36,545 nt of DNA. It comes from Rhodospirillaceae bacterium. GTDB taxonomy: Bacteria; Pseudomonadota; Alphaproteobacteria; Bin65. Positions 4,542-28,344 of the stretch are shown piece by piece. The position numbers and the translations under genes were made by a program. Below the pieces are notes generated by a model that was not told the DNA's origin, ran no database searches, and saw nothing but the letters and a program-made list of their open reading frames with translations. The stretch spans positions 1-36,545 of the forward strand of contig JAPOST010000199.1 in the NCBI GenBank assembly GCA_026709535.1, given 5' to 3'. Every line of letters begins with the position of its first letter. Within the stretch, counting starts at the first letter, position 1.

Positions 4542-5105
4542 CTACTTCGCACGCTCCAAGTAGGTGCCATCGGCGGTGGCGACGAGAACTCTGGCTCCAG
4601 CCTCAATATGTGGAGGGACCATGATGCGCTCGCCATTCTCAAGGATCGCGGGTTTGTAGGAGGATGAGGCGGTCTGGCCTTTGACGACGGGGTCGGCTTC
4701 CATCACTTCCATCACCCAGCTATCGGGAAGTTCGACGCTGATGGGCGAGCCCTCGTAAGAATGAATTGTGACGTTCATGCCATCCTTCAGGTAGACCACC
4801 GGATCGCCGATCATTTCCTTGTTCAGCGTGATCTGCTCGTAGGTTTTGCCATGCATGAAGGTTACTTCGTCACCATCAATGAACAAGAACTGGTAAGCTT
4901 CTTCGTCCAGCCGTACCTTTTCGACGCTCTCTGCGGCGCGGAACCGCTCGTTGAGCTTGGTGCCGTCGCGAATGTCCTTCATCTCTGCCTGGAGATAGGC
5001 GCCGCCCTTGCCGGGCTGCGTATGCTGGATCTTGGCGACGCGCCACAGGCGACCGTTATGCTCGATAATGTTGCCAGGGCGGATCGCATTGCCGTTGATG
5101 CGCAT
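4542..5105 (-). CDS. efp: translation elongation factor P
   Basis: 187 aa, the usual EF-P length. EF-P binds between the P and E sites of the ribosome and relieves stalling at consecutive prolines. The N-terminal KOW-like domain carries the loop QPGKGGAYLQAEMKD. Lys33 is at the position that is beta-lysylated in E. coli (Lys34), so modification by EpmA/EpmB-type enzymes is expected, although neither gene is in this window. Two OB domains follow, with the typical SYEGSPISVELPDSW segment and a C-terminus ending near DGTYLERAK. The start ATG at 5105 gives the canonical N-terminus MRINGNAIRPGNIIEHNG. It lies upstream of suhB on the same strand. Confidence 0.96.
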   Translation of the reverse strand: MRINGNAIRPGNIIEHNGRLWRVAKIQHTQPGKGGAYLQAEMKDIRDGTKLNERFRAAESVEKVRLDEEAYQFLFIDGDEVTFMHGKTYEQITLNKEMIGDPVVYLKDGMNVTIHSYEGSPISVELPDSWVMEVMEADPVVKGQTASSSYKPAILENGERIMVPPHIEAGARVLVATADGTYLERAK

Positions 5106-5749: not shown

Positions 5750-6655
5750 TCACATATCTTTAATCATCTTGCGCATCTCTTCGAAGGCGATATCCCTTAT
5801 GTGCTTGCCGAATATCCATCGATGTCCTTCCGGGTCCTCGGCCCTGTATTGCCGTTCACCGAAGGTCTGGTCGGCCGGTTCGGCGGTGATTGTCGCGCCG
5901 TTGTTCCGGGCGCGCCTGAAGTGCGTGTCTACATCGTCGACGTAACAGAAAACCTGACTGTAGTAGCCGCCATTCCCCGGCGGGGCCTGGCCCATCTCGG
6001 GAAAGGCGCTGGCCAGCATGATGATATTGTCTCCAAAGCCCATTTCCGCATGGCCAATCCGGCCATCCTTCATCGCGAAAGCGTTACGCTTGTGAAATCC
6101 GAATGCCTTGGCGAGGAAATCCAGTGCAGCTGATACGTCGCGATAGACCAGCATGGGGATAATCCGCTGCATGACGGTCGGCGGACTTTGGATTCTTGGC
6201 TTCGACAGGAAGGGCGTCATGCCATCCCGTGCGAGTTGATCGGCGCGCTCGTTGCCCTCGCTGCCGGCATGGCCTTTCACCCATTTCCATGTGATGGTCC
6301 GGGCGGCCTGCAGCGTATCCAATGCCTGCCAAAGATCCCGGTTTTTGACCTGTTTCTTGTCGGAGGTCTGCCAGCCTCTAGCCTTCCACCTTGTAATCCA
6401 CTGAGTGATGCCGTTCTTCAAATAGCTGCTGTCAGTATAAAGCGTCGCTGAACCGCCAGGGTTCAGGTTGGTCAACGCCTCAATCGCGGCTTGCAGTTCC
6501 ATACGGTTATTTGTGGTCTCCGGGGCACCGCCCTTCAGCGTTTTTTCGTTATTGCCCTGCCGGATCAAAACGCCCCAGCCTCCTGGGCCCGGGTTGCCAC
6601 TGCAGGCGCCATCGGTGTAGATATCAAGCGGCTCATCTGATGGATCGACGGTCAT
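5750..6655 (-). CDS. rnhA: ribonuclease HI fused to a VOC (glyoxalase/PhnB-like) domain
   Basis: 301 aa, about twice the length of RNase HI. Residues 8-150 are a complete RNase HI, which cuts the RNA strand of RNA-DNA hybrids. The catalytic carboxylates are Asp15 (YTDGAC), Glu53 ([12 protein letters not shown]), Asp75 (YTDSSY) and Asp139 (ERADQLA), with His129 in KGHAG, matching E. coli D10, E48, D70, D134 and H124. After a short linker (~150-160), residues 162-288 form a VOC-fold domain of the PhnB/glyoxalase-like type: [31 protein letters not shown], and the closing [12 protein letters not shown]. The frame is continuous with no stop or good internal start at the junction. The gene begins 15 bp after thrB, the usual thrB-rnhA order of Alphaproteobacteria. 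The VOC domain's ligand is unknown. Confidence 0.93.
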
Positions 6656-12445: not shown

Positions 12446-14923
12446 CTACAAGGTCCGCCAGTCTTCGTCCTGTTCAAATGCGTGCGCTGCTCGATAGATC
12501 GTCGATTCGTCGTAATGCTTGCCCGTCAGCATGAGGCCAACTGGCAGACCGTCGCTCAGCCCGCACGGCACGCTCATGGACGGGTGGCCTGTAATGTCGA
12601 ATGGCGACGTATTGTTTACCATTTCAAAGGCGCGTTGCAAAATCAAATCCAACGGCGCGTCGGGGCCCGGAATCGGCGGGGCAACCATCGGCAGGGTCGG
12701 CATCAGCAGCAGATCGTAACGGCGCAATGCGTCGTCATACTCCGCACTCAGGCGGCGGGTCAGGTTCTGGGACTTGGCATAGTAAAGGCCCCGATGATGC
12801 TTCAGCATGTATTCGCCGATCATCATCGTGATCTTCAGGCTGTGAGACAACTCGTTGGCCCGGGACCGCCAGTTGGAATGGGCATCCAGGAGACTTGTGA
12901 TATAGAGACCCTTCCAACTTGTGCCAAATGCGTTGCCGTGCATCATCATGTTGGTTGCGCCTTCGAGGGCGATCGGCGTCCAGATGGATATCCCGTCCAG
13001 ATGCATCGGGATGGAAATATCCTCAACTGTCGCACCCATCGCGCGATACCGCTCGGCTGCCGCCCTGACCTTGGCATTCACGCCTGGCTCGCTGTTTTCC
13101 CAGTTGAAGCCTTCCTGAACAACGCCGATCCGCATACCGCCGACGCCGCGGCCCAGCGCTTGGGTGTAGACGTCTACGCGTGGTTTGTATTGCCGTGGGT
13201 CGAGCCCGTCTTCGCCAGCGATCACTTCCAGCGTCAGGGCGTTGTCTGACACATTCTGGGTCATCGGGCCCGTGTGATCGATGGTCGGTTCAATGGGCAT
13301 AATGCCGGTGTATGGCACCAAGCCGTGAGTCGGCTTCATGCCGTAGCAACCGCTGAAAGACGCCGGGATGCGAATGGATCCTCCCTGATCGCCGCCAATA
13401 GCTATGTCGACTTCGCCGGCCCCGACAAGCGCGCCGGAGCCAGAGGACGAGCCTCCAGCCGTGTGTCCGGTTTTCCAGGGATTATGCACGGGTCCGGTCG
13501 CATTCGTGTGGCTGCCGCCGGACAGGCAGAAATATTCGCAATGGGCCTTGCCGGCGATCGTTGCGCCGGCATCCAGCAATCGGGTTACGATGGTTGCATC
13601 CAATTCCGGCGTATAACCCTCCAGCGTCGAAGAGCCGTTCATCATCGGTACGCCGGCGAGACAGACATTGTCTTTCAGCGCAACCCTCTTGCCTTCCAGT
13701 CTGCCACTTGCCGCGCCGGAAACCTCGCACTTGTAGTACCAGGCGTTCATCGGGTTTTCCTTCTCGCCTGGGCGATAGCCCGGCGTACGCGGATACTTCA
13801 CCTTGGGCGGTGTGTCGGGGATGGAGTCGACCCTGTCATAAGCTGCCAGGGTCGGCTCCATGTTATCGAGGAAGAGCTGGATCTCGTTATCGCTCATGCT
13901 CATCCCGAACGAACGGACGATCTCCCGCATCTGTTCCAGGGTCGGTCGTCTAACAGTCATGTAGTTTCCTATCAGGTTGGCTAACGCTGTGTGCTGCTGA
14001 GGTGCAGTGGGCAGGCTGGCAGCGGCGCGGTTTTCATGAGGCGCCGCCAGCATGGTTGGGGTCGATGGACGAGACGAGGTTGCTGGCGGGGTTGTCAGTT
14101 GCGCTCTACCGGTCTCGGCATGGGCGGATACGCTGCCGAGCCCGGCAAATTCCTCGATCAACCCGGTGGCGTCGAACTGGTCGCGCTGGATTTCGGCCTT
14201 CACCGCACCCCGCTCCAAGACCAGGATTCGATCCGACAGCCCGGTCAGGAATTCCAGATTCTGCTCGACCAGCAACAGCGTAATCCCGCGGGTGGAGCGA
14301 ATGGTTGTGAGCGTTTCGGCCATCTCCTCGATAATCGACGGCTGAATTCCTTCTGTCGGTTCGTCCAGCAGCACCAGGATTGGGTCGGCGATCAGACATC
14401 GAGCCACCGCGAGAATCTGCTGTTCGCCACCGCTCAAAACGCCTCCTTGACGGTCCAGGATGGGCACCAGGCGCGGAAATTCCACTACGATACGGTCGAT
14501 TCCAGCTTCTACTGCGCCGTCCCCGGTTTCTTCACTCCAAGCAAACTTGAGGTTTTCCCGGACAGTCAGGTTGGCAAAGATTCCACGGCCCTGAGGCACG
14601 TAGCCAAAGCCAAGCCGACTGCGCTTCCAGGTCGGCATTCGGGTAACAGGCGCGCCATCAAACGTGATCTGTCCCCCTGTCGCAGGAAGGAGACCCATGA
14701 GGGTCTTGAGCAATGTAGATTTGCCCATGCCGTTGTGGCCGAGCAGACCGAGCACCTGGTTTTCCGCTAGCTCCATGGACACGCCGCGCAAAACCGGAAT
14801 ATCGCCGTATCCGGCGCGCAATTTCTCGATTGTCAGGAGGGCGGCGCGCCCTGATGCTGTTTCCGGGATGCTGCTCATTGCGCTGCCACCGGCCGGGCCA
14901 TTCCGGAACGCAACTGCCGTCAT
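12446..14923 (-). CDS. LivF-type ABC ATPase fused to an amidase-signature hydrolase
   Basis: 825 aa from ATG 14923, which overlaps the livG stop as ATGA. Residues 28-262 are a LivF-type ATPase: Walker [10 protein letters not shown] (62-70), Q-loop Gln111, signature LSGGEQQ (163-169), Walker B LVLLDEP (183-189). Residues ~263-321 are a Pro/Ser/Thr/Ala-rich linker. Residues 322-825 are a complete amidase-signature enzyme similar to Rhodococcus/Brevibacterium enantioselective amidases. In amidase numbering its Ser-cisSer-Lys triad is Lys96 (ALKDN), Ser171 (GGSSSGS) and Ser195 ([10 protein letters not shown]). An amidase-only start is possible: ATG 13960 follows AGGA at a good distance, so both a fusion and a free amidase could be made. 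The fusion would place hydrolysis at the inner face of the importer. I found no stop codon in the linker; a sequencing error hiding one cannot be excluded. Confidence 0.88.
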
Positions 14924-15639
14924 TGCGATTTCCCCAGATAAACATCGCGGACTACGGGGTCGCGCAGGACGGTGTCGACGTAGCCTTCCGTGAGAATCCG
15001 ACCCCGATGCAGGACCGTGACCGTATTCGCAAGCTGACGAATGAAATGCATGTCGTGTTCGACAACGATTATGGCCGCTCGTTCGTTCATCTCGCGGATT
15101 ACTGCGACGGCACGCTCGGCTTCGTCTGCAGTCAGTCCGGCGGCCGGCTCGTCCAGGAGGATCAGCCATGGGTTGCCTGCCAGAACGGTACCAAATTCTA
15201 CCAACTGGCGGCGGCCGTGGGCGAGATTTCCGACCAGGTCACCGGCGCTGTCAGCAATGCCGATCCGCTCCAGCGTTTCCGAAACGATCCGGTTGGCGCT
15301 CCGTGTCGTGTTCAGTCGCCGGGCTGCGATCCAGATATTTTCTCGGACCGACAATCCGTTCATCACGCTTGGCACCTGGGTCTTGATGCCGACGCCAAGT
15401 CCAGCGATCTGATGCGGATGTGCTCCGACGCAATCGATTCCGCGAATCCGGATGTCACCTTCCGTGGGTCGGAGCATCCCGGTCAAACATTTGAAGAAGG
15501 TGCTCTTTCCGGCACCGTTCGGACCGATGAGGCAACGCAGTTCATTGTCCGCCAGAGTAAAGTCCACGGATTCGAGCGCGGATACGCCGCCGAAACGGAC
15601 GCCGACGCCCCTTGCTTCGACGACCCCGTCACGCGCCAT
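14920..15639 (-). CDS. livG: branched-chain amino acid/amide ABC transporter ATPase, LivG-type
   Basis: 239 aa from ATG 15639, preceded by AAAGGG. The frame is open further upstream, but those residues are not LivG-like. Walker A GPNGAGKST at 39-47, the signature as LAHGRRQLVEFG, and Walker B WLILLDEPAAGL, with the EHDMHFIRQLA switch region. It hydrolyses ATP to drive the LivH/LivM permease. It overlaps the permease stop by 11 bp and the LivF-amidase start by 4 bp, so this is a tightly coupled operon. The symbol denotes subunit type; by context the cargo is an amide or urea-like compound rather than leucine. Confidence 0.92.
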   Translation of the reverse strand: MARDGVVEARGVGVRFGGVSALESVDFTLADNELRCLIGPNGAGKSTFFKCLTGMLRPTEGDIRIRGIDCVGAHPHQIAGLGVGIKTQVPSVMNGLSVRENIWIAARRLNTTRSANRIVSETLERIGIADSAGDLVGNLAHGRRQLVEFGTVLAGNPWLILLDEPAAGLTADEAERAVAVIREMNERAAIIVVEHDMHFIRQLANTVTVLHRGRILTEGYVDTVLRDPVVRDVYLGKSQ

Positions 15640-16687
15640 TGCGAGCCCTTTCGGACCTCGTACGTCGCCGCATGCCGCTGCCGCTTTTGAAGCGACCAAC
15701 AAGGGATCTGCCAAACCACCCCTGAATGGATGGAACCACTCCGCGCGGCAGGAACAGGACAAACAGGACAAGGATCATCCCGAAAACCAAGGTGGCTTCC
15801 AGAGGGTTTTCCTTGCCAAAAACCTGTTTGATTGACTGTAGACCGAGCACGAATTTGAGGTGACCTAAAACAGCCGCGCCGATCATGGGGCCGATCAGGG
15901 TCCCGGTGCCCCCGACGATGACCCAGATGATGGCTTCCGCAGCGAGACCCAAGCTGAACAACTCGGGTGTCACGATCTCGGCGGCGTTGGCGTAAAGACA
16001 ACCTGCGAGCCCGGCGAGCCCGCCGCCAAAGGCAAAGGCTGCTGTCTTGCGGGCTCGAACGTCGTAACCCAACAGCTCAATTCTCTGTTCGTTCTCGCGC
16101 AGTCCTACCAAAACGCGGCCGAAGGGGCTGCCCAGCAGCCATCGCGTCAGCAGATAACAGACAAAGAGTATGATGAAAGTGAAGTAATACAACTCCTCAT
16201 CATAGATGTTGGCGTCCGGGTTCCCGGGTGTGTGGAGCGTCGGAAATCCGGGAATACCATTGTATCCGCCCATTCTTGCTTCGCCGATGACGTATTCAGG
16301 TCCGGCGGTGGTATTCATGAAGCGGAACAGCAGAAGAGTGACGACGAGAGTTACTACTGCCAGATACACGTCGCTCAGGCGACCATAAAACATCATGGCG
16401 CCCAAGATGGCGGCAAAGATGGCCGGGATGAGGATGGCGAGGAAAAAGCCACCCCAGGCTTCGCCCAGATTAATGGCGGTCATGGCGTACACGTAGGCGC
16501 CCAGACCGTAAAAGGCTGTTTGTCCGAAACAGAGAATGCCGCCATAGCCCCAGACAAATCCAAGGCTGAGCGCAAGAAGCGCGTAGGCGGCATAGGTGGT
16601 CAGGTTCAGAACGTCAAAGAAGACGGGCAACACGAACATGACGATCGCGGCGATGACTACAGACAGGACCAGTTGACGGGATGTCAT
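15629..16687 (-). CDS. livM: branched-chain/amide ABC transporter permease, LivM-type
   Basis: 352 aa. An inner-membrane permease with about nine to ten hydrophobic segments. LivM-family marks include GYGGILCFGQTAFYGLGAY near residues 47-65 and RENEQRIELLGYDVRARKTAAF, the EAA-like loop that contacts the ATPase, followed by GGLAGLAGCLYA and GGTGTLIGPMIGA. The C-terminus has a basic tail rich in Arg. The ATG at 16687 lies 12 bp after the LivH stop. With LivH it forms the translocation pore. Residues ~125-165 (periplasmic, GGYNGIPGFPTLHTPGNPDANIYDEE) resemble the urea/short-chain amide branch of the family. Confidence 0.92.
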   Translation of the reverse strand: MTSRQLVLSVVIAAIVMFVLPVFFDVLNLTTYAAYALLALSLGFVWGYGGILCFGQTAFYGLGAYVYAMTAINLGEAWGGFFLAILIPAIFAAILGAMMFYGRLSDVYLAVVTLVVTLLLFRFMNTTAGPEYVIGEARMGGYNGIPGFPTLHTPGNPDANIYDEELYYFTFIILFVCYLLTRWLLGSPFGRVLVGLRENEQRIELLGYDVRARKTAAFAFGGGLAGLAGCLYANAAEIVTPELFSLGLAAEAIIWVIVGGTGTLIGPMIGAAVLGHLKFVLGLQSIKQVFGKENPLEATLVFGMILVLFVLFLPRGVVPSIQGWFGRSLVGRFKSGSGMRRRTRSERARNGA

Positions 16688-16699
16688 CGAAGCTTCGGT

Positions 16700-17569
16700 C
16701 TATAAGCGGTTCTTGAAGAAACGGCCGGAAATGCCTGTCGGCAAGAGTCGCAACAAGATGATCGCGGCGACCAGCAAACCCAGTTCACCGATAACCGAAT
16801 TCGTCAGGAAGGTCACGATCTGTGTGACAAAACCGAAGAAACCGGAACTTGTAATCAGGCCAGAAACGACGGAGGCACCGCCTGAAATAACAGTGATAAA
16901 AGCCTTGGCGATGTAAAGACTACCGGCATTGGGCCCGATCCCGACCAAGGGCGCCAAGATGCCACCGGCAAGTCCGGCCAATGCGGCGCCAGCCGCGAAT
17001 GTTGCCATGTAGATCCGGGACGCGTCATAGCCGAATGCGGTGGCCATGTCGGCGTTCTGCATTGCTCCGCGGGCAACAAGGCCGGCGCGGGTGAATCGCA
17101 GTATCGCAAAGATCAAGGCAATGACGCCGATCGCCGAAGCGATAATGAAGATATTGTAGCCACTGATGTTGAAAGCGCCGACGGAAATGCTTCCAATCGG
17201 TGCCTTCACGCTGGTCGTTGTGGTACCGAAAATCAGGGAAAAGGAGCCGATCATGGCGAGGCTCAGCCCCCAGGTCGCCAGCATGGTGTTGATCAGACGG
17301 CCGTAGAGAAACCGCACGATCAGCCGCTCGATAACTACCCCGAACACAGCGACAACCACAGGCGCTATGACGAGCATCGAGACGAACAGGTTGATGCCCA
17401 GATTGTTGTGGGCGACGATTGCGGTGTATCCGCCGAGCAGGATGAATTCGCCGTGCGCCAGATTGACTACCCGCATCATCCCGAACACGACCGCGAGCCC
17501 GGCGCTAATCAGCGCCAGAAACGCGATCGTGTAAAGGATCTCGTAGACGACGACTACAGCGAGATCCAT
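16700..17569 (-). CDS. livH: branched-chain/amide ABC transporter permease, LivH-type
   Basis: 289 aa from ATG 17569; a GTG start at 17608 would add 13 residues. Seven to eight membrane segments. The LivH pattern VVFGMMRVVNLAHGEFILLGGY is near the N-terminus. GAMQNADMATAFGYDASRIYMATFAAGAALAGLAGGILAPL is the loop-helix region that contacts the ATPase. The protein ends in the usual GLLV-rich helix and LLPTGISGRFFKNRL. It is in an operon after the substrate-binding protein and before LivM, giving the standard SBP-H-M-G-F order. Confidence 0.92.
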   Translation of the reverse strand: MDLAVVVVYEILYTIAFLALISAGLAVVFGMMRVVNLAHGEFILLGGYTAIVAHNNLGINLFVSMLVIAPVVVAVFGVVIERLIVRFLYGRLINTMLATWGLSLAMIGSFSLIFGTTTTSVKAPIGSISVGAFNISGYNIFIIASAIGVIALIFAILRFTRAGLVARGAMQNADMATAFGYDASRIYMATFAAGAALAGLAGGILAPLVGIGPNAGSLYIAKAFITVISGGASVVSGLITSSGFFGFVTQIVTFLTNSVIGELGLLVAAIILLRLLPTGISGRFFKNRL

Positions 17570-17625
17570 TGGGCGGACGCCGTCCTTTTCCGAGGATCCA
17601 ACAAGCACTCTTCAGTTGATCAAGT

Positions 17626-18846
17626 TCAGATCTTTATCTCGTACTGCTTCGTGTCGTCCGGATTCTTCTGAAGGTCACACACGGCCTGTGTATCCGATGG
17701 CGGAATCTGGCTGTAGCTCTTGATGACATTGAGCTTCTGGTTCTTGATCTCAATCAGATGCATGTCGTGCGTCACATGATGCGTCTTGGGGTCAATGGTG
17801 ACCTTGCCCGTCGGGCCGGTGTAGCTGATGCCGGTCTCTAGCGCTTCGATCACCTTCATCCGGTCCAGTGTTCCTGCCTTCTTGACGCCTTCAGCCCACA
17901 GGCGGACGCCGTCGTAGCTGGACGCGGCAATCTCGTGGATATCGTCCGTGTTACCGAACCTCTTCTTATAGGCCGTCAGGAATGTCTTTACCGACGGGAT
18001 GTCCGCTTCTGGAGAGAAGCTCTGGCAGACCATGATACCGTCGCCTTCGCTTGCCGTCAGGATCCTGTGATCGTTGCCGGAGGACATGGTTGTCGAAGCG
18101 ACGGGGATCTTCCTGTTCATGCCTGCTGCTGCCCATTGGCGATAGAACGACAGGTGCGCTGCGCCGACCAGCACGGCCATTACCATGTCCGGCTTGGCCT
18201 TCTGGATCTTGGCGATCGTCGAGCCAAAGTCGGAGACGTTCAACGGGAAGAAATCGGCCTGGATGACATCGCCGCCCGCGTTCTTTGCATAATGCCTGAT
18301 CCAGTTCGTCGTGATCTGACCGTAGTTGTAGTCAGCTGCCAGGACGTAGATCTTCTTGCCCCATTTCTTGATCGTTTCGGGCACGAGAATTGCCGACTGC
18401 TGGGCCGGTGTGGTGCCTGTGCAGAAAACGTTACGGTCGCACACGCCGCCTTCGTAGGTGGTGTTGTAGAAATACAACGTCTTTGCCTTTCGAAGCGTTG
18501 GCCGGATGGCTTCGCGCGACGCCGACAGGATTCCGCCGTGAATGACATCCACCTTGTCCCGGCGAGTCATGCGGCGGGCATATTGGGTGTACAGAGCCAT
18601 GTTGGACTGGGTGTCATAAGGGATCATCTCGATCTGCCTGCCCAACAGGCCACCAGCTGCGTTGATTTCCTCAACCGCCAGTTGATGCGTCTTTTCCATC
18701 GGTTTGCCGTAGGCTTCGAAGATGCCTGACGTGTCGAGGATGCTGCCGAACTTTATAGTATCGGCTGACTGAGCGACGGATGGTATGGTGGCAAACGCTC
18801 CGGCCGCTGTCGCTCCCTGCATGAACTGTCTGCGATTGATGGTCAT
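17626..18846 (-). CDS. amide/urea-type ABC substrate-binding protein, Tat-exported
   Basis: 406 aa. The N-terminus is a twin-arginine signal (NRRQFMQGATAAGAFATIPSVAQSA), so the folded protein is sent to the periplasm. The mature part is a type I periplasmic-binding fold of the AmiC/FmdD/UrtA branch: IKFGSILDTSGIFEAYG, AVEEINAAGGLLGRQIEMI, the FYNTTYEGGVCDRNVFCTG stretch and ADYNYGQITTNWIRHY. These are more like short-chain amide/urea binders than leucine binders. A strong GGGAGGAG ribosome binding site precedes the ATG. It is the first transporter gene, directly after the flotillin. The specific ligand is unknown; an amide fits the fused amidase downstream. Confidence 0.92.
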   Translation of the reverse strand: MTINRRQFMQGATAAGAFATIPSVAQSADTIKFGSILDTSGIFEAYGKPMEKTHQLAVEEINAAGGLLGRQIEMIPYDTQSNMALYTQYARRMTRRDKVDVIHGGILSASREAIRPTLRKAKTLYFYNTTYEGGVCDRNVFCTGTTPAQQSAILVPETIKKWGKKIYVLAADYNYGQITTNWIRHYAKNAGGDVIQADFFPLNVSDFGSTIAKIQKAKPDMVMAVLVGAAHLSFYRQWAAAGMNRKIPVASTTMSSGNDHRILTASEGDGIMVCQSFSPEADIPSVKTFLTAYKKRFGNTDDIHEIAASSYDGVRLWAEGVKKAGTLDRMKVIEALETGISYTGPTGKVTIDPKTHHVTHDMHLIEIKNQKLNVIKSYSQIPPSDTQAVCDLQKNPDDTKQYEIKI

Positions 18847-18881: not shown

Positions 18882-20459
18882 TCAAGATTTATCGTCTTCG
18901 GCGTCGTCTTCGTCGTCGCCGGCCAGCTGCAAATTCACGCCCAGCTGCTTGCCCAGCTTTTGCATGGCGGGAAGTTGCACCGCCATGTTCAGCACTCCGT
19001 CTACAACCTGGTTGAATGGCGAGGTAGGGGTGCTGGCGTTATCGTTACCTTGCACACCAAGGCCCAAGCCATTCACCTGGTTGATGCGGATCGATTCGAT
19101 CTTCTCGGCAGGCTTGACCATCTGCTCAATGATTGCCGGCATCTTGTCGATGCGGTGTTGCTCCAGCTTCGTGCGCAACACCGCGTCGCTGGTGTCATTT
19201 TCTGCTGCGATCAGCGCAGCTTTGCCTTCGGCTTCCGACTTCAGTTCATGGCGCCGGGCTTCGGCCTTGACGGATGTCGCTTTTGCCTCCGCCTGGACCT
19301 TGTCGAGCAGCGTCTTGACCTCCGATTTGGTCACTTCTTCGGAGACATCCGAATCGCGCTTGGCGCGCATCAGCGCTGTTTCAGCTTCGCGTTGGGCTGC
19401 CAGCTTTTCCTTTTCCAGCCGCATCTTTTCCTGCGCCGCGATAATTCCCGCCCGGCGCAACTCCATTTCTGCCTCAGCATCAAACTCCTCGGCACGCTTG
19501 CGGCTGAGAACGATCTGGCTATCGATCTTTGTCGATTCGGCTGCCAGAAGCGCTTCTGATTCCTCCTGACGCAATTTCAGGTCGCGCTGGATTTCTGCCA
19601 GTCGGGTCTTGCGCTCGGCATCAATGCGCGCGCGGATTGCTTCCTGCTGCGCCTGCTGGCGCGCAGATTCCTCTGCTGCACCGCTGGCCGCTCGGACTTC
19701 TTCAACGGTCTGATGCTGAGCGATTTCCGCCTCTTGTTGTTCGCGTTCAATCTGCAATTTGCGTTTCAGCGATTCGAGCTGAGTCTGCCGGACTGACACG
19801 TCAGCATCTGCTTCGATCGTGGCGCGCTGTTTCTTGTTGGCGGAGATGATTTCTGCAAGTTTGCGCATTCCGACAGCGTTGAACGCATTATTCTCCTCCA
19901 AGGTCGCAAACGATGCCTGATCGAACCGGGTAAGCGATGCCGATTCAAGCTTGAGGCCATTCTGTTCAAGGTTTTCCGCAAGTTGTGCTTCAACTTCTTT
20001 CACGAACGCGGCGCGGTCTTCATGAAGCTGGTCCATCGTCTTGGTGGCTACCACTCCCTGCATGGCGCCGATCAGCCGGCCACCTAGCAGCTCATGCAGA
20101 TTTTCGGGCCGAAGCGACCGGGCGCCGATGGCCTGGGCCGCTGTGGCGACGCCTGTGGGCGTCGGCAAGACGCGCAGGTTATATTCCATCTCCACGTCTA
20201 GGCGCAGCCGATCTTCTGTCATCAGCGACTTGTTGCCGGTGCGAGCGACCTCCAGCGGCATGGCGCGCATGTTGATTTCTTCGATCCGGTGCAGGAAGGG
20301 CAGGGCGATGGAGCCGCCATCCATCACGACTTTCTGGCCTCCGAAGCCAGTCCGGATCAGCGCCGTTTCGCGTGTGGCTTTGCGGTAGAAGCGCTGCATG
20401 AATGCAATGAGGATTGCCAGTACTACGACAATGATGACAAGGACTATGAAGGTCGCCAT
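18882..20459 (-). CDS. flotillin-like SPFH-domain membrane protein
   Basis: 525 aa. One N-terminal membrane helix (residues 3-21, FIVLVIIVVVLAILIAF). An SPFH/band-7 domain follows at about 30-200 (TGFGGQKVVMDGGSIALPFLHRIEEINMRAMPLEV). Residues ~190-440 are a long charged coiled coil with repeated Glu-Ala patterns typical of flotillins. The C-terminus is short and acidic (DDEDDAEDDKS). Flotillins (FloA/FloT/YqiK) oligomerise into membrane scaffolds that organise lipid microdomains and protein complexes. It lies 35 bp upstream of the substrate-binding protein and on the same strand, between it and the AmiC-like gene, so it is probably co-expressed with the importer. That placement is unusual. 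Confidence 0.9.
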   Translation of the reverse strand: MATFIVLVIIVVVLAILIAFMQRFYRKATRETALIRTGFGGQKVVMDGGSIALPFLHRIEEINMRAMPLEVARTGNKSLMTEDRLRLDVEMEYNLRVLPTPTGVATAAQAIGARSLRPENLHELLGGRLIGAMQGVVATKTMDQLHEDRAAFVKEVEAQLAENLEQNGLKLESASLTRFDQASFATLEENNAFNAVGMRKLAEIISANKKQRATIEADADVSVRQTQLESLKRKLQIEREQQEAEIAQHQTVEEVRAASGAAEESARQQAQQEAIRARIDAERKTRLAEIQRDLKLRQEESEALLAAESTKIDSQIVLSRKRAEEFDAEAEMELRRAGIIAAQEKMRLEKEKLAAQREAETALMRAKRDSDVSEEVTKSEVKTLLDKVQAEAKATSVKAEARRHELKSEAEGKAALIAAENDTSDAVLRTKLEQHRIDKMPAIIEQMVKPAEKIESIRINQVNGLGLGVQGNDNASTPTSPFNQVVDGVLNMAVQLPAMQKLGKQLGVNLQLAGDDEDDAEDDKS

Positions 20460-20586
20460 GTGACTCGCCTCTTTCTTGGAACTGTCGCAATTCCGGCCGT
20501 CTGCTCCTGCGGCTCACAATTATCCTTGCGTTATTTTCCATGTCAAATAAATTGTCGGCATGGATCGAGGACATTCCTTGCGGCAT

Positions 20587-21615
20587 CTATCGGGCCAGTT
20601 TTTGAACGATGCAGAAGTCCAATCCATGCGTCTCCGCCAGATAGATGGGAAGTGTCGACGACCCGGCTTCAGCGCGGACACCCATGCGGTCCTGTCCGGT
20701 AATATGCGTCGCCAGCCTGCCCATCCCTTCATAGATCGACTGACCCAGATTGTTCAGCACCGGGGCGCGTTCGCCAAACCGGCCATGATACCGTTCCCGA
20801 AACGCGCCGTTGCGGCGCGTGTCCAGTGCTTCGAAGTAACCGGCGCTGACAAACAGCCCGTTCGTGGCTTCAGAGCCCATGGCAAGCAGCATGTTTTCTT
20901 CAATTGCACAGGACAGCCGCAAGATGCGCTGCGACAAGCCTGCGGCATTGAAGCCACGATTGAAAAGAACCGAATCCTGGCCGATAAGGGACAGCAACAC
21001 GATGTCCGGGCGGCGTTCCTTGATGCGGTCCAGAGTACGGTCGAATCGGTTGTCGTCAGTCGCGCTCGGGGTAAATCCGACGAAATCATTGCCGATGACG
21101 TGATGGCCTCGTTGTTTCAGGGCCCTGGCCGCCAGCGCGTGTGTGACACGCGGCCAGACATAATCGTTGCCGACGAAATACCAGCGGCGCAGTCGGTAGC
21201 GGCTGCCCATCCAATCCAATGCCGGCAAAAGCTGCCGATCCGGCGTCGCGCCGATGCAATGCGCCCCGTCGGCTACCAGGCCTTCATGCAGGGGCGTGTA
21301 GATGTAGGGAATACGATGAGCGACCGCGGCGACGACGGTATCGCGGACGTCGCTTGTGTGCATGCCGACGATGGAGTCGATTGCTCCGGCGGCGATCAGG
21401 CGGGTCGCTGTCCGGGCAACGGTATCCGGGTTGCCGCCAGCGTCGACGAATCGAAGCCGAAACTGCCGGTTGCAAGAATACCGGTCGTTCATTTCTGCCC
21501 CGGCAAGTTCGGCGCTAGCGCGACAGGAGGGTCCCCAGATACCTGCTACGCCGCTGGTCGGGATGAAAACCCCAACAGTATGTATCTGTATCTTGCTGCT
21601 CGTCATGCCTGGCAT
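20587..21615 (-). CDS. AmiC-like cytoplasmic amide-binding regulator/sensor
   Basis: 342 aa (or 339 from the second Met). Type I periplasmic-binding fold without any signal peptide: the protein begins MPGMTSSKIQIHTVGVFIPTSG and goes straight into strand 1. Other family marks are VDAGGNPDTVARTATRLIA, IYTPLHEGLVADGAHCIGATPDRQLLPALDWM and WYFVGNDYVWPR, which resemble AmiC, the intracellular amide sensor of the Pseudomonas amidase operon, and UrtA-type binders. It is the first gene of the minus-strand operon and divergent from a MarR gene. In Pseudomonas AmiC acts by sequestering the ANTAR antiterminator AmiR. No AmiR-like gene is visible here, so its output partner is unknown. Confidence 0.85.
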   Translation of the reverse strand: MPGMTSSKIQIHTVGVFIPTSGVAGIWGPSCRASAELAGAEMNDRYSCNRQFRLRFVDAGGNPDTVARTATRLIAAGAIDSIVGMHTSDVRDTVVAAVAHRIPYIYTPLHEGLVADGAHCIGATPDRQLLPALDWMGSRYRLRRWYFVGNDYVWPRVTHALAARALKQRGHHVIGNDFVGFTPSATDDNRFDRTLDRIKERRPDIVLLSLIGQDSVLFNRGFNAAGLSQRILRLSCAIEENMLLAMGSEATNGLFVSAGYFEALDTRRNGAFRERYHGRFGERAPVLNNLGQSIYEGMGRLATHITGQDRMGVRAEAGSSTLPIYLAETHGLDFCIVQKLAR

Positions 21616-21708
21616 CTCAAGCCAACCCTATATAATCCTATGCATTGTGCGACAGTGTCCGTGGCGGCGGAAGGGAGCATCTGCCATCGATCGATCCGGG
21701 AGGGGTAG
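21616..21708. promoter_or_regulatory. divergent promoter region between the amide operon and MarR gene
   Basis: A 93-bp gap between two divergent starts. The AT-rich core at 21626-21640 contains TATAAT (21631-21636), readable as a -10 for the MarR gene; its reverse complement offers a weaker -10 for the operon. No convincing -35 was found. A MarR dimer would be expected to bind here. The MarR gene has a strong GGGAGGGG ribosome binding site at 21698-21705. Confidence 0.4.
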
Positions 21709-22152
21709 ATGGCATTTGCGGACGGAACCGCCGATACCCTGATACAGGTCGGCCAATCGATTTCAGTAACTTTGGAATCGATCGTGGGCCGCCACGGACT
21801 GACGCTTGCGCAATGGCGCGTTCTTGACTGCCTGCAAGACGGAAGTGGAAAGACCATGTCCAGCCTGTCGTCGGCGTGTGGCATCCGACTCTCGGCTCTG
21901 TCGAGGTTGGTGGATCGGATGGTTGTCCGATCCTTGGTAATGCGCAAACGGGACGAGAATGATCAGCGGGTCATCATCGTTATGGCATCCGATTTCGGGC
22001 TTGAATACTATGCCCGCAGCGCGGCGGCCGTTGATGCCTTTGATGCCTGGCTGGCAGAGCGGATATGCGATTTCGAGCTCGATAATCTCAATGTCCTGGC
22101 GATTGGATCGGAAGATCTTCGATCAAATCCCCTTTACATGGGCTTGGAGTGA
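21709..22152 (+). CDS. MarR-family transcriptional regulator
   Basis: 147 aa. Winged-helix regulator with the MarR pattern: LTLAQWRVLDCLQDG leading into MSSLSSACGIRLSALSRLVDRMV as recognition helix-turn-helix, then the wing RKRDENDQRVIIV with the conserved Asp-x-Arg type contact. Flanking helices would dimerise. MarR proteins usually repress divergent operons and release DNA on binding small, often aromatic, acids or phenols. It is divergent from the amide-transport/amidase operon and converges with a hydratase gene of aromatic catabolism, so it is a likely regulator of one or both. An aromatic-derived inducer would be consistent but is inference. Confidence 0.9.
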   Translation: MAFADGTADTLIQVGQSISVTLESIVGRHGLTLAQWRVLDCLQDGSGKTMSSLSSACGIRLSALSRLVDRMVVRSLVMRKRDENDQRVIIVMASDFGLEYYARSAAAVDAFDAWLAERICDFELDNLNVLAIGSEDLRSNPLYMGLE

Positions 22153-26383: not shown

Positions 26384-27385
26384 ATGATCAAGACACCGTA
26401 TTTGCTGTTTCTCGGCGATGCGCCGGATCAACTGGCTGCCAAGGTTGCACAGGGGATCAAGGACTGGCGGCCGGAAAATGTGGTCGGTCAGTTGCGTCTG
26501 GAGGGATGTCAGGCTGACGTCGGCATGGCCGACATGACGTTGGAAGAAGCCCGGCAAGCCGATGCCAAAACGCTGGTGATCGGCGTAGCCAATCGCGGCG
26601 GCGTGATTTCGCATCGCTGGAAGGACGTTTTGATCCATGCTTTGGAAATGGGCTATGACTTGGCATCCGGCCTCCACAACTTGTTGCGGGATGACGCCGA
26701 TCTGGTGAAGGCCGCGCAAGAGCATGGCGGTGCCTTGCACGACGTAAGGGTGCCGGATGATGACTACCCCATCGCAAAGGGCAGGCCACGGGCCGGGAAG
26801 CGCTGCTTGGCCGTTGGCACAGATTGTTCAGTCGGCAAGATGTATACTGGACTGGCCATGGATGCCGAAATGCGCCGCCGAGGTCATAGATCGACGTTTC
26901 GTCCCACCGGTCAGACAGGGATCCTGATTGCCGGTGATGGCGTCCCCCTGGATGCTGTTGTTGCCGACTTCATGGCTGGCGCTATCGAGGTTCTCACGCC
27001 CGACAACGATGCTGATCACTGGGATCATATCGAAGGCCAAGGCAGTCTGTTCCACATTTCCTATTCTGGTGTGACAATGGCCCTGATCCATGGCGGCCAG
27101 CCCGACGCCTTGATCTTGTCTCACGAACCAACCCGCAAACACCTGCGTGGCCTTTCAGGCTACCCCGTGCCGCCGCTGGAAACACTACGCGACTTGGCGT
27201 TATCGTTGGCGCGCATCGCCAATCCGTCGTGCGTTGTGGCGGGCATCTCCATCAATACTCAGCATCTTGGCGCCTCGGCTGCCGACGCTCTTTGCCGGGA
27301 GACGGAGCATCGTCTGGGTTTGCCGACAGTGGACCCGTACCGTCACGGTGCTGGTCGTCTGGTTGATGCACTCGCCACATTATGA
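26384..27385 (+). CDS. dgcN: DUF1611 protein, probable D-glutamate N-acetyltransferase (DgcN)
   Basis: 333 aa. A DUF1611-family protein: an N-terminal Rossmann-like region (TLVIGVANRGGVISHRWKDV, 63-82), then a P-loop domain with GTDCSVGKMYTG (145-156) and HGGQPDALILSHEPTRKHLR. In marine Proteobacteria DgcN has been described as the D-glutamate N-acetyltransferase that starts a D-Glu-to-L-Glu route with DgcA. The next gene here is a DgcA-like epimerase overlapping by 4 bp (ATGA), and a D-amino-acid aminotransferase follows, which makes this assignment attractive. The older annotation would be 'NAD-dependent epimerase-like, unknown function'. The family is certain; the enzyme activity is by analogy. 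Confidence 0.85.
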   Translation: MIKTPYLLFLGDAPDQLAAKVAQGIKDWRPENVVGQLRLEGCQADVGMADMTLEEARQADAKTLVIGVANRGGVISHRWKDVLIHALEMGYDLASGLHNLLRDDADLVKAAQEHGGALHDVRVPDDDYPIAKGRPRAGKRCLAVGTDCSVGKMYTGLAMDAEMRRRGHRSTFRPTGQTGILIAGDGVPLDAVVADFMAGAIEVLTPDNDADHWDHIEGQGSLFHISYSGVTMALIHGGQPDALILSHEPTRKHLRGLSGYPVPPLETLRDLALSLARIANPSCVVAGISINTQHLGASAADALCRETEHRLGLPTVDPYRHGAGRLVDALATL

Positions 27386-28344
27386 TCAAGGTGACGCCGC
27401 AATCATTTCGGCTGGCCAGGGCTTTTACGATTTCCCGTGGATCGCGCCTTGAGGCACATGTGCTGACGGTTCGGATTTCCCGGGATGGCGCGACGGGCTG
27501 GGGAGAATGTGTTCCTTACGCACGGTATCAGGAAACTCCGGAAAGCGTTGCGGCGCAGATTGAAAGCCTGCCTCACGACATTGGTCGTGTGGAGCTTCAG
27601 GAAGCCTTGCCGGCCGGCGCGGCGCGCAATGCCGTAGATTGCGCATTATGGGATTGGGAAGCCAAGAAAACTGGCACGCGAGCGTGGAATCTCGCCCGAC
27701 TTCGACCGCCGGGACCAATACCGGTCGCGTTCACCTTGTCCCTCGATACGCCGGAACAGATGGAATATGAAGCGCGGCAACATGCCGGACAGCGCCTGCT
27801 GAAGGTCAAGCTCGGCACGCCGAATGACATTCCCCGCCTGGAGGCGGTGCGCCGGGGAGCGCCAGAGGTGAAAATCATTGTTGACGCCAATGAAGGCTGG
27901 TCGGCAGCGGAATATCAGGATCTCGTACCGTATCTTGTCAATCTTGGCGTTTTGATGGTCGAACAGCCGGTACCTGCGGCAGATGACGGGCTTTTGGCGG
28001 AGATCGATCGCCTCTTGCCGGTCTGCGCCGATGAAGCCGTGCATGATCGCCGGTCGCTGCCGACGCTGGCAGGAAAGTACGACATGATCAACATCAAGCT
28101 GGATAAGACTGGGGGATTGACGGAGGCGCTGGAACTGCGCCGAGAGGCGGAAGCATTGGGCTACGGTATCATGGCCGGTTGCATGGTTGGGTCGTCGTTG
28201 GCGATGGCCCCGGCGACGTTGATTGCCCAAGGTGCGGCATTCGCCGATCTGGACGGGCCGCTGCTTTTGGCAGAAGACCGCGACCATCCATTGCATTACG
28301 ACACCGCAGGGGTTCATCCCCCGGATGTGGCCTTGTGGGGATAG
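27382..28344 (+). CDS. dgcA: enolase-superfamily epimerase, probable N-acetyl-D-glutamate racemase (DgcA)
   Basis: 320 aa. Muconate-lactonizing subgroup of the enolase superfamily with the dipeptide-epimerase active site: KxK at Lys141/Lys143 (LLKVKLG), metal ligands Asp168 (IIVDANEGW), Glu194 (LMVEQPV) and Asp217 (CADEAV), and the opposing base Lys239 (INIKLDKTGG). Two lysines on opposite faces are what a 1,1-proton-transfer racemase needs. Such proteins are often annotated L-Ala-D/L-Glu epimerase. Next to DgcN, the N-acetyl-D-Glu to N-acetyl-L-Glu reaction is more likely. Start overlaps dgcN by 4 bp; it ends 4 bp before the aminotransferase. Confidence 0.85.
   Translation: MIKVTPQSFRLARAFTISRGSRLEAHVLTVRISRDGATGWGECVPYARYQETPESVAAQIESLPHDIGRVELQEALPAGAARNAVDCALWDWEAKKTGTRAWNLARLRPPGPIPVAFTLSLDTPEQMEYEARQHAGQRLLKVKLGTPNDIPRLEAVRRGAPEVKIIVDANEGWSAAEYQDLVPYLVNLGVLMVEQPVPAADDGLLAEIDRLLPVCADEAVHDRRSLPTLAGKYDMINIKLDKTGGLTEALELRREAEALGYGIMAGCMVGSSLAMAPATLIAQGAAFADLDGPLLLAEDRDHPLHYDTAGVHPPDVALWG

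Follow-up and report, generated by a model that had tools for sequence, protein, structure and literature searches.

The putative cytoplasmic amide-sensing protein of the solute-binding protein (SBP) fold encoded at 20587–21615 (− strand) probably works with a divergently encoded MarR-family regulator rather than with AmiR, MarR repressing the adjacent operon and the SBP relieving this repression in the presence of an amide. According to the proposed mechanism, MarR would bind a 20-bp dyad at 20531–20550, which covers the −35 box of a promoter-like site, and the bound MarR would block the flotillin/urea-type ABC transporter/amidase operon at the DNA. Once in the cytoplasm, the amide substrate or a similar small amide would be bound by the SBP, which would change its state, and the amide-bound SBP would then relieve MarR repression, probably through direct contact with MarR; both this contact and derepression as the sign of control are presumed here. 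A broader proposal, which is advanced tentatively, is that an exported urea/amide SBP has been recruited as a cytoplasmic sensor at least twice, with ANTAR and with MarR partners, and that the latter make up a split pair, widespread in Proteobacteria and Actinobacteria, in which the SBP senses and lifts MarR off the operator. If this is true, the anti-repressor role would be unusual for the SBP fold.

Gene Content of the Locus

The window, i.e., the whole stretch of 36,545 nucleotides analyzed, is one contig of a 3.67-Mb assembly with a completeness of 96.2%. The ORF of the SBP-fold protein (a putative UrtA/AmiC-type sensor according to Pfam and structure matches) is present on the − strand, starts with ATG, and encodes 342 aa. 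The gene for the MarR-family regulator (147 aa), its conserved partner, lies at 21709–22152 (+), and the intergenic gap between the two (21616–21708) holds a + strand promoter-like site (21609–21636). The genes that follow on the − strand code for a flotillin with Band_7 and Flot domains (18882–20459) and, based on domain and family models, a UrtA-like SBP that carries a TAT-type signal (weak match) and is likely the exported binder (17626–18846), UrtB-like (16700–17608) and UrtC-like (15629–16687) permeases, a UrtD-like ATPase (ORF 14920–15771, the true start of which probably lies inside the listed ORF), and a UrtE-like ATPase fused to an amidase in one ORF (12446–15169, with a true start near 14.84 kb suggested by the domain match). 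The urtA, B, C and E models all match the transporter genes, with every match below the model cut-off.

The fusion of the transporter ATPase with the amidase is apparently conserved, the UrtE-like ABC ATPase and the amidase being a single ORF in 55 of the 62 loci that have both genes, and it may couple uptake to hydrolysis. Flotillin is common in the amide-transport operon, and is found between the genes of the cytoplasmic and the exported SBP at 63 of the 80 loci described below; a separate SBP is encoded in the operon at 68 of the 80 (tblastn). Elsewhere in the window, an ORF at 5750–6655 (−) unusually combines RNase H and glyoxalase-type domains, and at 26384–28344 (+) the genes of a DUF1611 protein and an enolase-superfamily protein overlap by 4 bases. 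Genes of these two families are usual partners at dipeptide epimerase loci.

Fold, Location and Conserved Residues of the SBP-Fold Protein

Residues 13–298 of the protein match Peripla_BP_6 (E-value, 2.4e-52) and Peripla_BP_5 (E-value, 3.2e-41) of Pfam, and its sequence relatives in the PDB include the urea-binding protein 8tg1 (3.4e-27) and AmiC 1pea (2.5e-18). The AlphaFold model (mean pLDDT, 89.3) matches urea-binding proteins and AmiC (1qo0, 1pea) with TM scores of 0.83–0.86, including 0.85 for a urea-binding protein and 0.83–0.84 for AmiC 1qo0/1pea. As modeled, the protein has the type I SBP fold and belongs to the urea/amide group. By sequence inspection, no export signal was found in the window protein or in its same-genus orthologues (6/6), all of which have an ATG at the domain start or within a few residues of it; the orthologue L005 has two GTG codons further upstream as well. 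Signal-like starts were also absent, on inspection, across the sensor family. A hydropathy test for signals (>1.6 in 4/80 sensors and 19/67 downstream SBPs) is crude and was given no weight. Judged from its sequence, the protein is cytoplasmic, and the signal-less SBP-fold protein described in the first-pass annotation is borne out.

Ten residues (S88, Y104, Y106, T107, P108, E111, D151, Y152, W154 and P155) are invariant in 59 aligned members and belong to segments aligning with YPTPYEG and GSDYIYPR, motifs of AmiC that line its amide pocket. An amide is presumably the ligand of the SBP-fold protein as well.

Pairing of the Sensor with MarR

The divergent MarR protein, also seen in the first-pass annotation, matches PF01047 with an E-value of 9.8e-12 (45.0 bits versus a cut-off of 24.6), and fold matches confirmed the winged-helix domain. 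Its top structural matches include proteins with bound benzoate, salicylate, and indole-3-carboxylate; many MarR proteins bind small ligands themselves.

Relatives of the sensor were sought in the genome contigs of 84,980 species, and the best 80 of 229 relatives were kept. These best 80 loci span Alpha-, Beta- and Gammaproteobacteria and one Pseudonocardia, and they are not a random sample because most sequences in the query alignment were MarR-linked. The MarR profile found a partner at 77 of the best 80 of 229 loci, divergent at 74 and upstream on the same strand at 3, and at the other three merely 42, 95, and 322 bases were available upstream of the domain. Flotillin was not found downstream at 17 of the 80 loci; MarR is retained in 15 of these, and the two without a counted MarR are L071 (cut) and L078 (partial MarR match). 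The SBP–MarR pair is kept at L066, L098, L101 and L114, where window-like flotillin or transporter genes were not found. In 200 genomes of the Pseudonocardia order, MarR is present at the best 30 of 30 sensor loci (one of which, L136, repeats L114 of the 80 loci), at 10 of the 11 next-best ones, and at none of the six weaker ones (L178–L183).

A less selected sample of 385 genomes of the class, in which five candidate places per genome were scored for the sensor and counts were read from tables, yielded 30 sensor members at an E-value of 1e-60. MarR lies within 1 kb of 25 of them and at 2.1 kb from one (G025), and the remaining four are tandem sensor copies situated a few kb from an SBP–MarR pair. 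In the same sample, all of the 18 best MarR-profile matches are less than 2.2 kb from a sensor gene; at ranks 19–30, a sensor was found within 1 kb in five cases, at 2.7 kb in one and not at all (E-value, 1e-60) in six, and the partner MarR subfamily is not exclusive to sensor-linked loci. Only one of the 21 Peripla_BP_6 matches in the own genome, that at this locus, has a MarR match within 1 kb. Chance linkage of the SBP and MarR genes is rejected by this figure and by the adjacency observed in the class sample.

No adjacent MarR was found beside the family members L176, L217 and L220; L220, on the Aminobacter plasmid pUSP2, is an orphan case: its gene and those of a nitrile hydratase are divergent, and its surroundings gave no MarR match. 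Six other genomes of the genus and one of the same family (L025–L030 and L011, respectively) carry a second sensor (~40% identical) with its own MarR, and no second copy was seen in the own genome.

A single subfamily of partner MarRs, set apart from 12 other own-genome MarR rows, is compatible with the MarR tree (AU p 0.475), which used 12 of the 16 own-genome MarR stretches and contained the poor rows L236 (mostly a low-complexity match) and L078 (partial). The window protein belongs to the MarR-linked SBP sensor family by its clade, by the adjacent MarR of the partner subfamily, and by the motif at the structural promoter. Linkage, together with a motif shared by both intergenic gaps, makes the AmiC-like/MarR partnership well supported at the sequence level. 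The first-pass annotation had suggested such a partnership as a new one: the pairing stands, and the novelty is lost to the Rhodococcus and M. smegmatis precedents discussed below.

Descent of the Sensor Family

For phylogenetic analysis, 278 SBP matches were reduced to 258 by removal of duplicates and short sequences and to 70 by clustering at 60% identity, and the window protein was added; six long-branched own-genome SBP rows (L035–L040) were then dropped, leaving 65 rows in the careful tree. The eight AmiC rows were hand-picked as signal-less SBPs beside ANTAR. In the 65-row tree, these eight AmiR-linked sequences cluster with SBPs of the UrtA type (100/99); a 98/89 split separates them from the MarR-linked family, on whose side six non-MarR-linked rows also fall. 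A single clade of all cytoplasmic sensors was rejected (AU p 0.0033; 1.9e-5 with strictly MarR-labelled rows), and the MarR-linked family as one clade was not (AU p 0.691; 0.716 with L012 and L217). The strictly MarR-labelled rows were rejected as one clade (p 5e-49) because the tree places L166 (MarR at 2 kb), L099 (at a contig end), L220 (without MarR), L012, and L217 among them. L166, L099, and L220 were added to the family after the first tree, and the sensor-joining tests were likewise post-tree.

An AmiC orthologue is ruled out, since AmiR-linked AmiC groups with UrtA transporters and the joint sensor clade is rejected. The description of the protein as AmiC-like is thus correct in fold and location and fails in descent. 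Given the tree split and the rejected joint clade, SBPs appear to have become cytoplasmic sensors on at least two occasions, within the limits set by the root, the model, and the hand-picked groups.

Putative Operator and Promoter

The putative MarR operator, proposed from motif conservation, is the sequence TTATTTGACATGGAAAATAA (20531–20550, − strand), which has dyad symmetry with arms TTATTT/AAATAA. Its 20 bp are identical in all seven genomes of the genus (7/7) while the flanks diverge, and in the own genome it is unique at up to 3 mismatches. Lying between the sensor gene and flotillin, it shares bases with a promoter-like site (TTGACA-16-GATAAT, 11/12; 20519–20546, − strand), the −35 of which lies within the putative operator; two promoter-like sites were found in the scanned region, with 0.7 expected. 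Since this conserved promoter-like site and the putative operator are located between the sensor gene and flotillin, the sensor gene is probably not heading the main transcript. Judged by the position of the −10 box, that transcript would start near 20512. The earlier statement that it heads the operon therefore holds for the gene string, in which it is first, and probably does not hold for the main transcript.

An unguided search revealed 12-mers shared by 53–54 of the 81 sensor-to-next-gene gaps (best shuffle word, 12) and by 41 of the 73 MarR–sensor gaps (best shuffle word, 13), using 6000 words per set and one set of first-order Markov shuffles, with 2 of 75 MarR–sensor gaps dropped by length. 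With held-out matrices, the best site of the whole locus fell in either gap at 51/55 alphaproteobacterial loci (matrix from Beta- and own-genus loci), and at 14/16 beta and 6/6 own-genus loci (Alpha-trained matrix), some best sites in these counts being weak (7–9 bits). By the same rule, the score was 0/3 for gammaproteobacterial and 0/1 for actinobacterial loci; the gammaproteobacterial loci do have sites, 458–615 bases past the sensor gene and ahead of the flotillin match. In two of the four alphaproteobacterial misses, L080 and L101, the best site is ~100–200 bp before an amidase match. The held-out matrix scan found no motif site at L108 and L110.

At a threshold of ≥12 bits, and with the training loci included, 131 sites were found in the 19.4 kb after the sensor gene and 48 in the 23.7 kb of MarR–sensor gaps, as compared with 13 in 1147 kb elsewhere; 70 of the 81 loci have such a site after the sensor gene, and 4 of the 81 have none anywhere. 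Denitrobaculum tricleocarpae (L049) and Ruegeria marina (L094) are examples of species in which the same operon comes with a clear site. At 8 bits, sites were present in 7/11 further family loci, 3/8 plasmid loci, and 4/30 actinobacterial loci, and none was found at L010, L031, L166 or at the plasmid loci L134, L218, and L219. The same threshold gave a site in 1/18 stretches around AmiC–AmiR-type ANTAR genes (two of them without an SBP match and four places fetched twice), in 1/30 other ANTAR loci, and in 0/7 other SBP loci of the own genome. In the own genus, the MarR–sensor gap was without an operator-like site at the 6/6 loci scanned, and autoregulation is rejected there, no site having been found. 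The paralogous pairs of L011 and L025–L030 (7/7) have a variant site in the MarR–sensor gap, e.g., TTCCTTGAAATGTAAAATAT.

The search of Actinobacteria revealed no common motif clearly above shuffles (best word, 24/39 versus 20). An operator-like dyad (12.8 bits) is located at 4748–4767 of L133 (R. rhodochrous pNit), ~54 bp before the aliphatic amidase gene, giving a slight indication that Rhodococcus may share the motif. The plasmid pBAM1 (L132) has an 11.6-bit site at 1899–1918, the sole one >4 bits in 17 kb, which is situated >5 kb from MarR and ~156 bp upstream of an amidase gene; this position suggests that the SBP–MarR pair of pBAM1 controls its amidase gene. Aminobacter pBAM1 encodes the dichlorobenzamide amidase BbdA, as reported in PMC8460812, and the amidase CDS near the site is presumably bbdA. 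Based on its conservation and position, the site at 20531–20550 is predicted to be bound by MarR; the motif could belong to another regulator.

Alternative Explanations

It is extremely improbable that the protein is a canonical AmiC with its AmiR encoded elsewhere in the genome, although it shares the fold and cytoplasmic location of AmiC and some ANTAR gene was detected (E-value 1e-4) in 30 of the 50 sensor-carrying genomes that were searched. No ANTAR was found in the other 20 genomes, nor, using a purpose-made ANTAR profile, in the stretches retrieved for the 80 loci, and AmiR-linked AmiC belongs to a different clade. A search that covered the own genome and 10 others gave no above-cut-off ANTAR match in the own genome or the six others of its genus (7/7 negative), as the first-pass annotation had noted for the visible sequence, and gave 56.5 bits in G043, beside a signal-less AmiC-type gene. 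The distant AmiR that the same annotation proposed to look for is rejected for the own genus, the 17.6-bit match in C15 (L001) being below the cut-off of 27.3; as the own assembly is 96.2% complete, this absence is strong, not absolute. At the mixed locus L234, an SBP gene has both an ANTAR (724 bp) and a MarR-like ORF (527 bp) nearby. Control by a leader RNA (antitermination or riboswitch) partnered with the SBP, the other option raised at the outset, is scarcely to be expected either. The flotillin leader folds only slightly better than shuffles (z −1.5, 13/200 equally good), but for the sensor leader folding is poorer than in shuffles (z +2.0), no terminator-like site was found in 20400–21800, and the suggested search for ANTAR-type paired hairpins gave no A1/G4 hexaloop hairpin with a stem ≥4 in either leader. 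Rfam gave no match at the gathering score, and the nearest ones were weak and at chance level.

An exported SBP that has lost its signal, or has been given a wrong start, and plays no regulatory role is very unlikely: the fold is typical of exported SBPs, and L012 and L217 are placed within or next to the clade, L012 with a TAT-type signal, but the family shows no signal-like start on inspection, its residues are still conserved, and most of the operons carry a further SBP gene. A more serious competitor, though still an unlikely one, is that MarR alone senses an acid or amide and that the cytoplasmic SBP is non-regulatory, acting as an acceptor or buffer that feeds the ATPase-fused amidase or as a tuner of the transporter from the inside. 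The aromatic acids bound by structural neighbours of MarR (benzoate, salicylate, indole-3-carboxylate), the position of the sensor gene, mostly preceding the transporter/amidase genes, the frequent UrtE–amidase fusion, and the partner-type MarRs without a sensor nearby are all consistent with it. On the other hand, the pair persists at the four loci where window-like flotillin or transporter genes were not found, and it also occurs in Rhodococcus beside genes for nitrile hydratase and aliphatic amidase. M. smegmatis AmiC, moreover, is reported as a positive regulator (PMC12719403), which would count here if it belongs to the same family. Relief of MarR repression by the amide-bound SBP is the reading preferred here.

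Comparison with Known Systems

The usual view is that MarR proteins sense their ligands themselves. That one MarR group is mostly encoded near a cytoplasmic binding protein suggests that this task can be passed on to a separate SBP, in which case SBPs would be interchangeable sensor modules; with the motif and promoter defined, the idea can be tested directly. The literature search retrieved no paper on a MarR–SBP pair, NhhC/NhhD, or a flotillin/amidase operon, the original Rhodococcus and M. smegmatis work being outside its reach. The breadth of the pairing, its separate origin from AmiC, the motif, and the flotillin/ATPase–amidase context were not found in that search, and absence in print is not claimed.

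Like the UrtABCDE-type urea-amide ABC transporters, the window operon has matching transporter genes (below the cut-offs) and an SBP of the same superfamily, and it differs from them by the addition of flotillin, the ATPase–amidase fusion and the extra cytoplasmic SBP, which, in contrast to the transported UrtA, has no export signal. The window SBP resembles that of the Pseudomonas aeruginosa AmiC–AmiR system (1pea, 1qo0) in its fold (TM 0.83–0.84), cytoplasmic location, association with an amidase operon, and aligned motifs. However, it is only 20–22% identical to P. aeruginosa AmiC and 26–31% identical to the products of four AmiR-linked AmiC genes of the class, belongs to the other clade, and has a MarR partner instead of ANTAR and a putative DNA operator instead of a leader RNA.

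The M. smegmatis acetamidase has AmiC and AmiD as positive regulators and AmiA as a negative one, according to a passage of PMC12719403. Much as proposed for the window locus, an amidase is under AmiC and a separate negative regulator, and no AmiR is named in that passage; the operon is a different one, and the likeness is one of regulator roles. The positive role of AmiC and the negative one of AmiA described there fit an SBP that counteracts a repressor, provided that AmiC is of the same family.

The closest arrangement is that of Rhodococcus plasmids, in which an SBP-fold gene adjoins a MarR gene beside genes for nitrile hydratase subunits (L218), an aliphatic amidase (L133, L219), or an amidase and an AmiS-type transporter (L134); the SBPs of L133, L134, and L219 belong to the same clade as the window SBP. 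NhhC/NhhD of R. rhodochrous J1 are reportedly a regulator pair of the SBP–MarR type. Unlike the window, the MarR gene is convergent in 3/4 of the Rhodococcus plasmids, and these stretches have no annotated flotillin or urea-type ABC genes. Given the Rhodococcus SBP–MarR pairs, the partnership is not unheard of, and with actinobacterial precedents known, it is as such not new. The SBP–MarR pair offers a common frame for the regulation of Rhodococcus nitrile hydratases and amidases and for the pesticide-residue amidase plasmid pBAM1.
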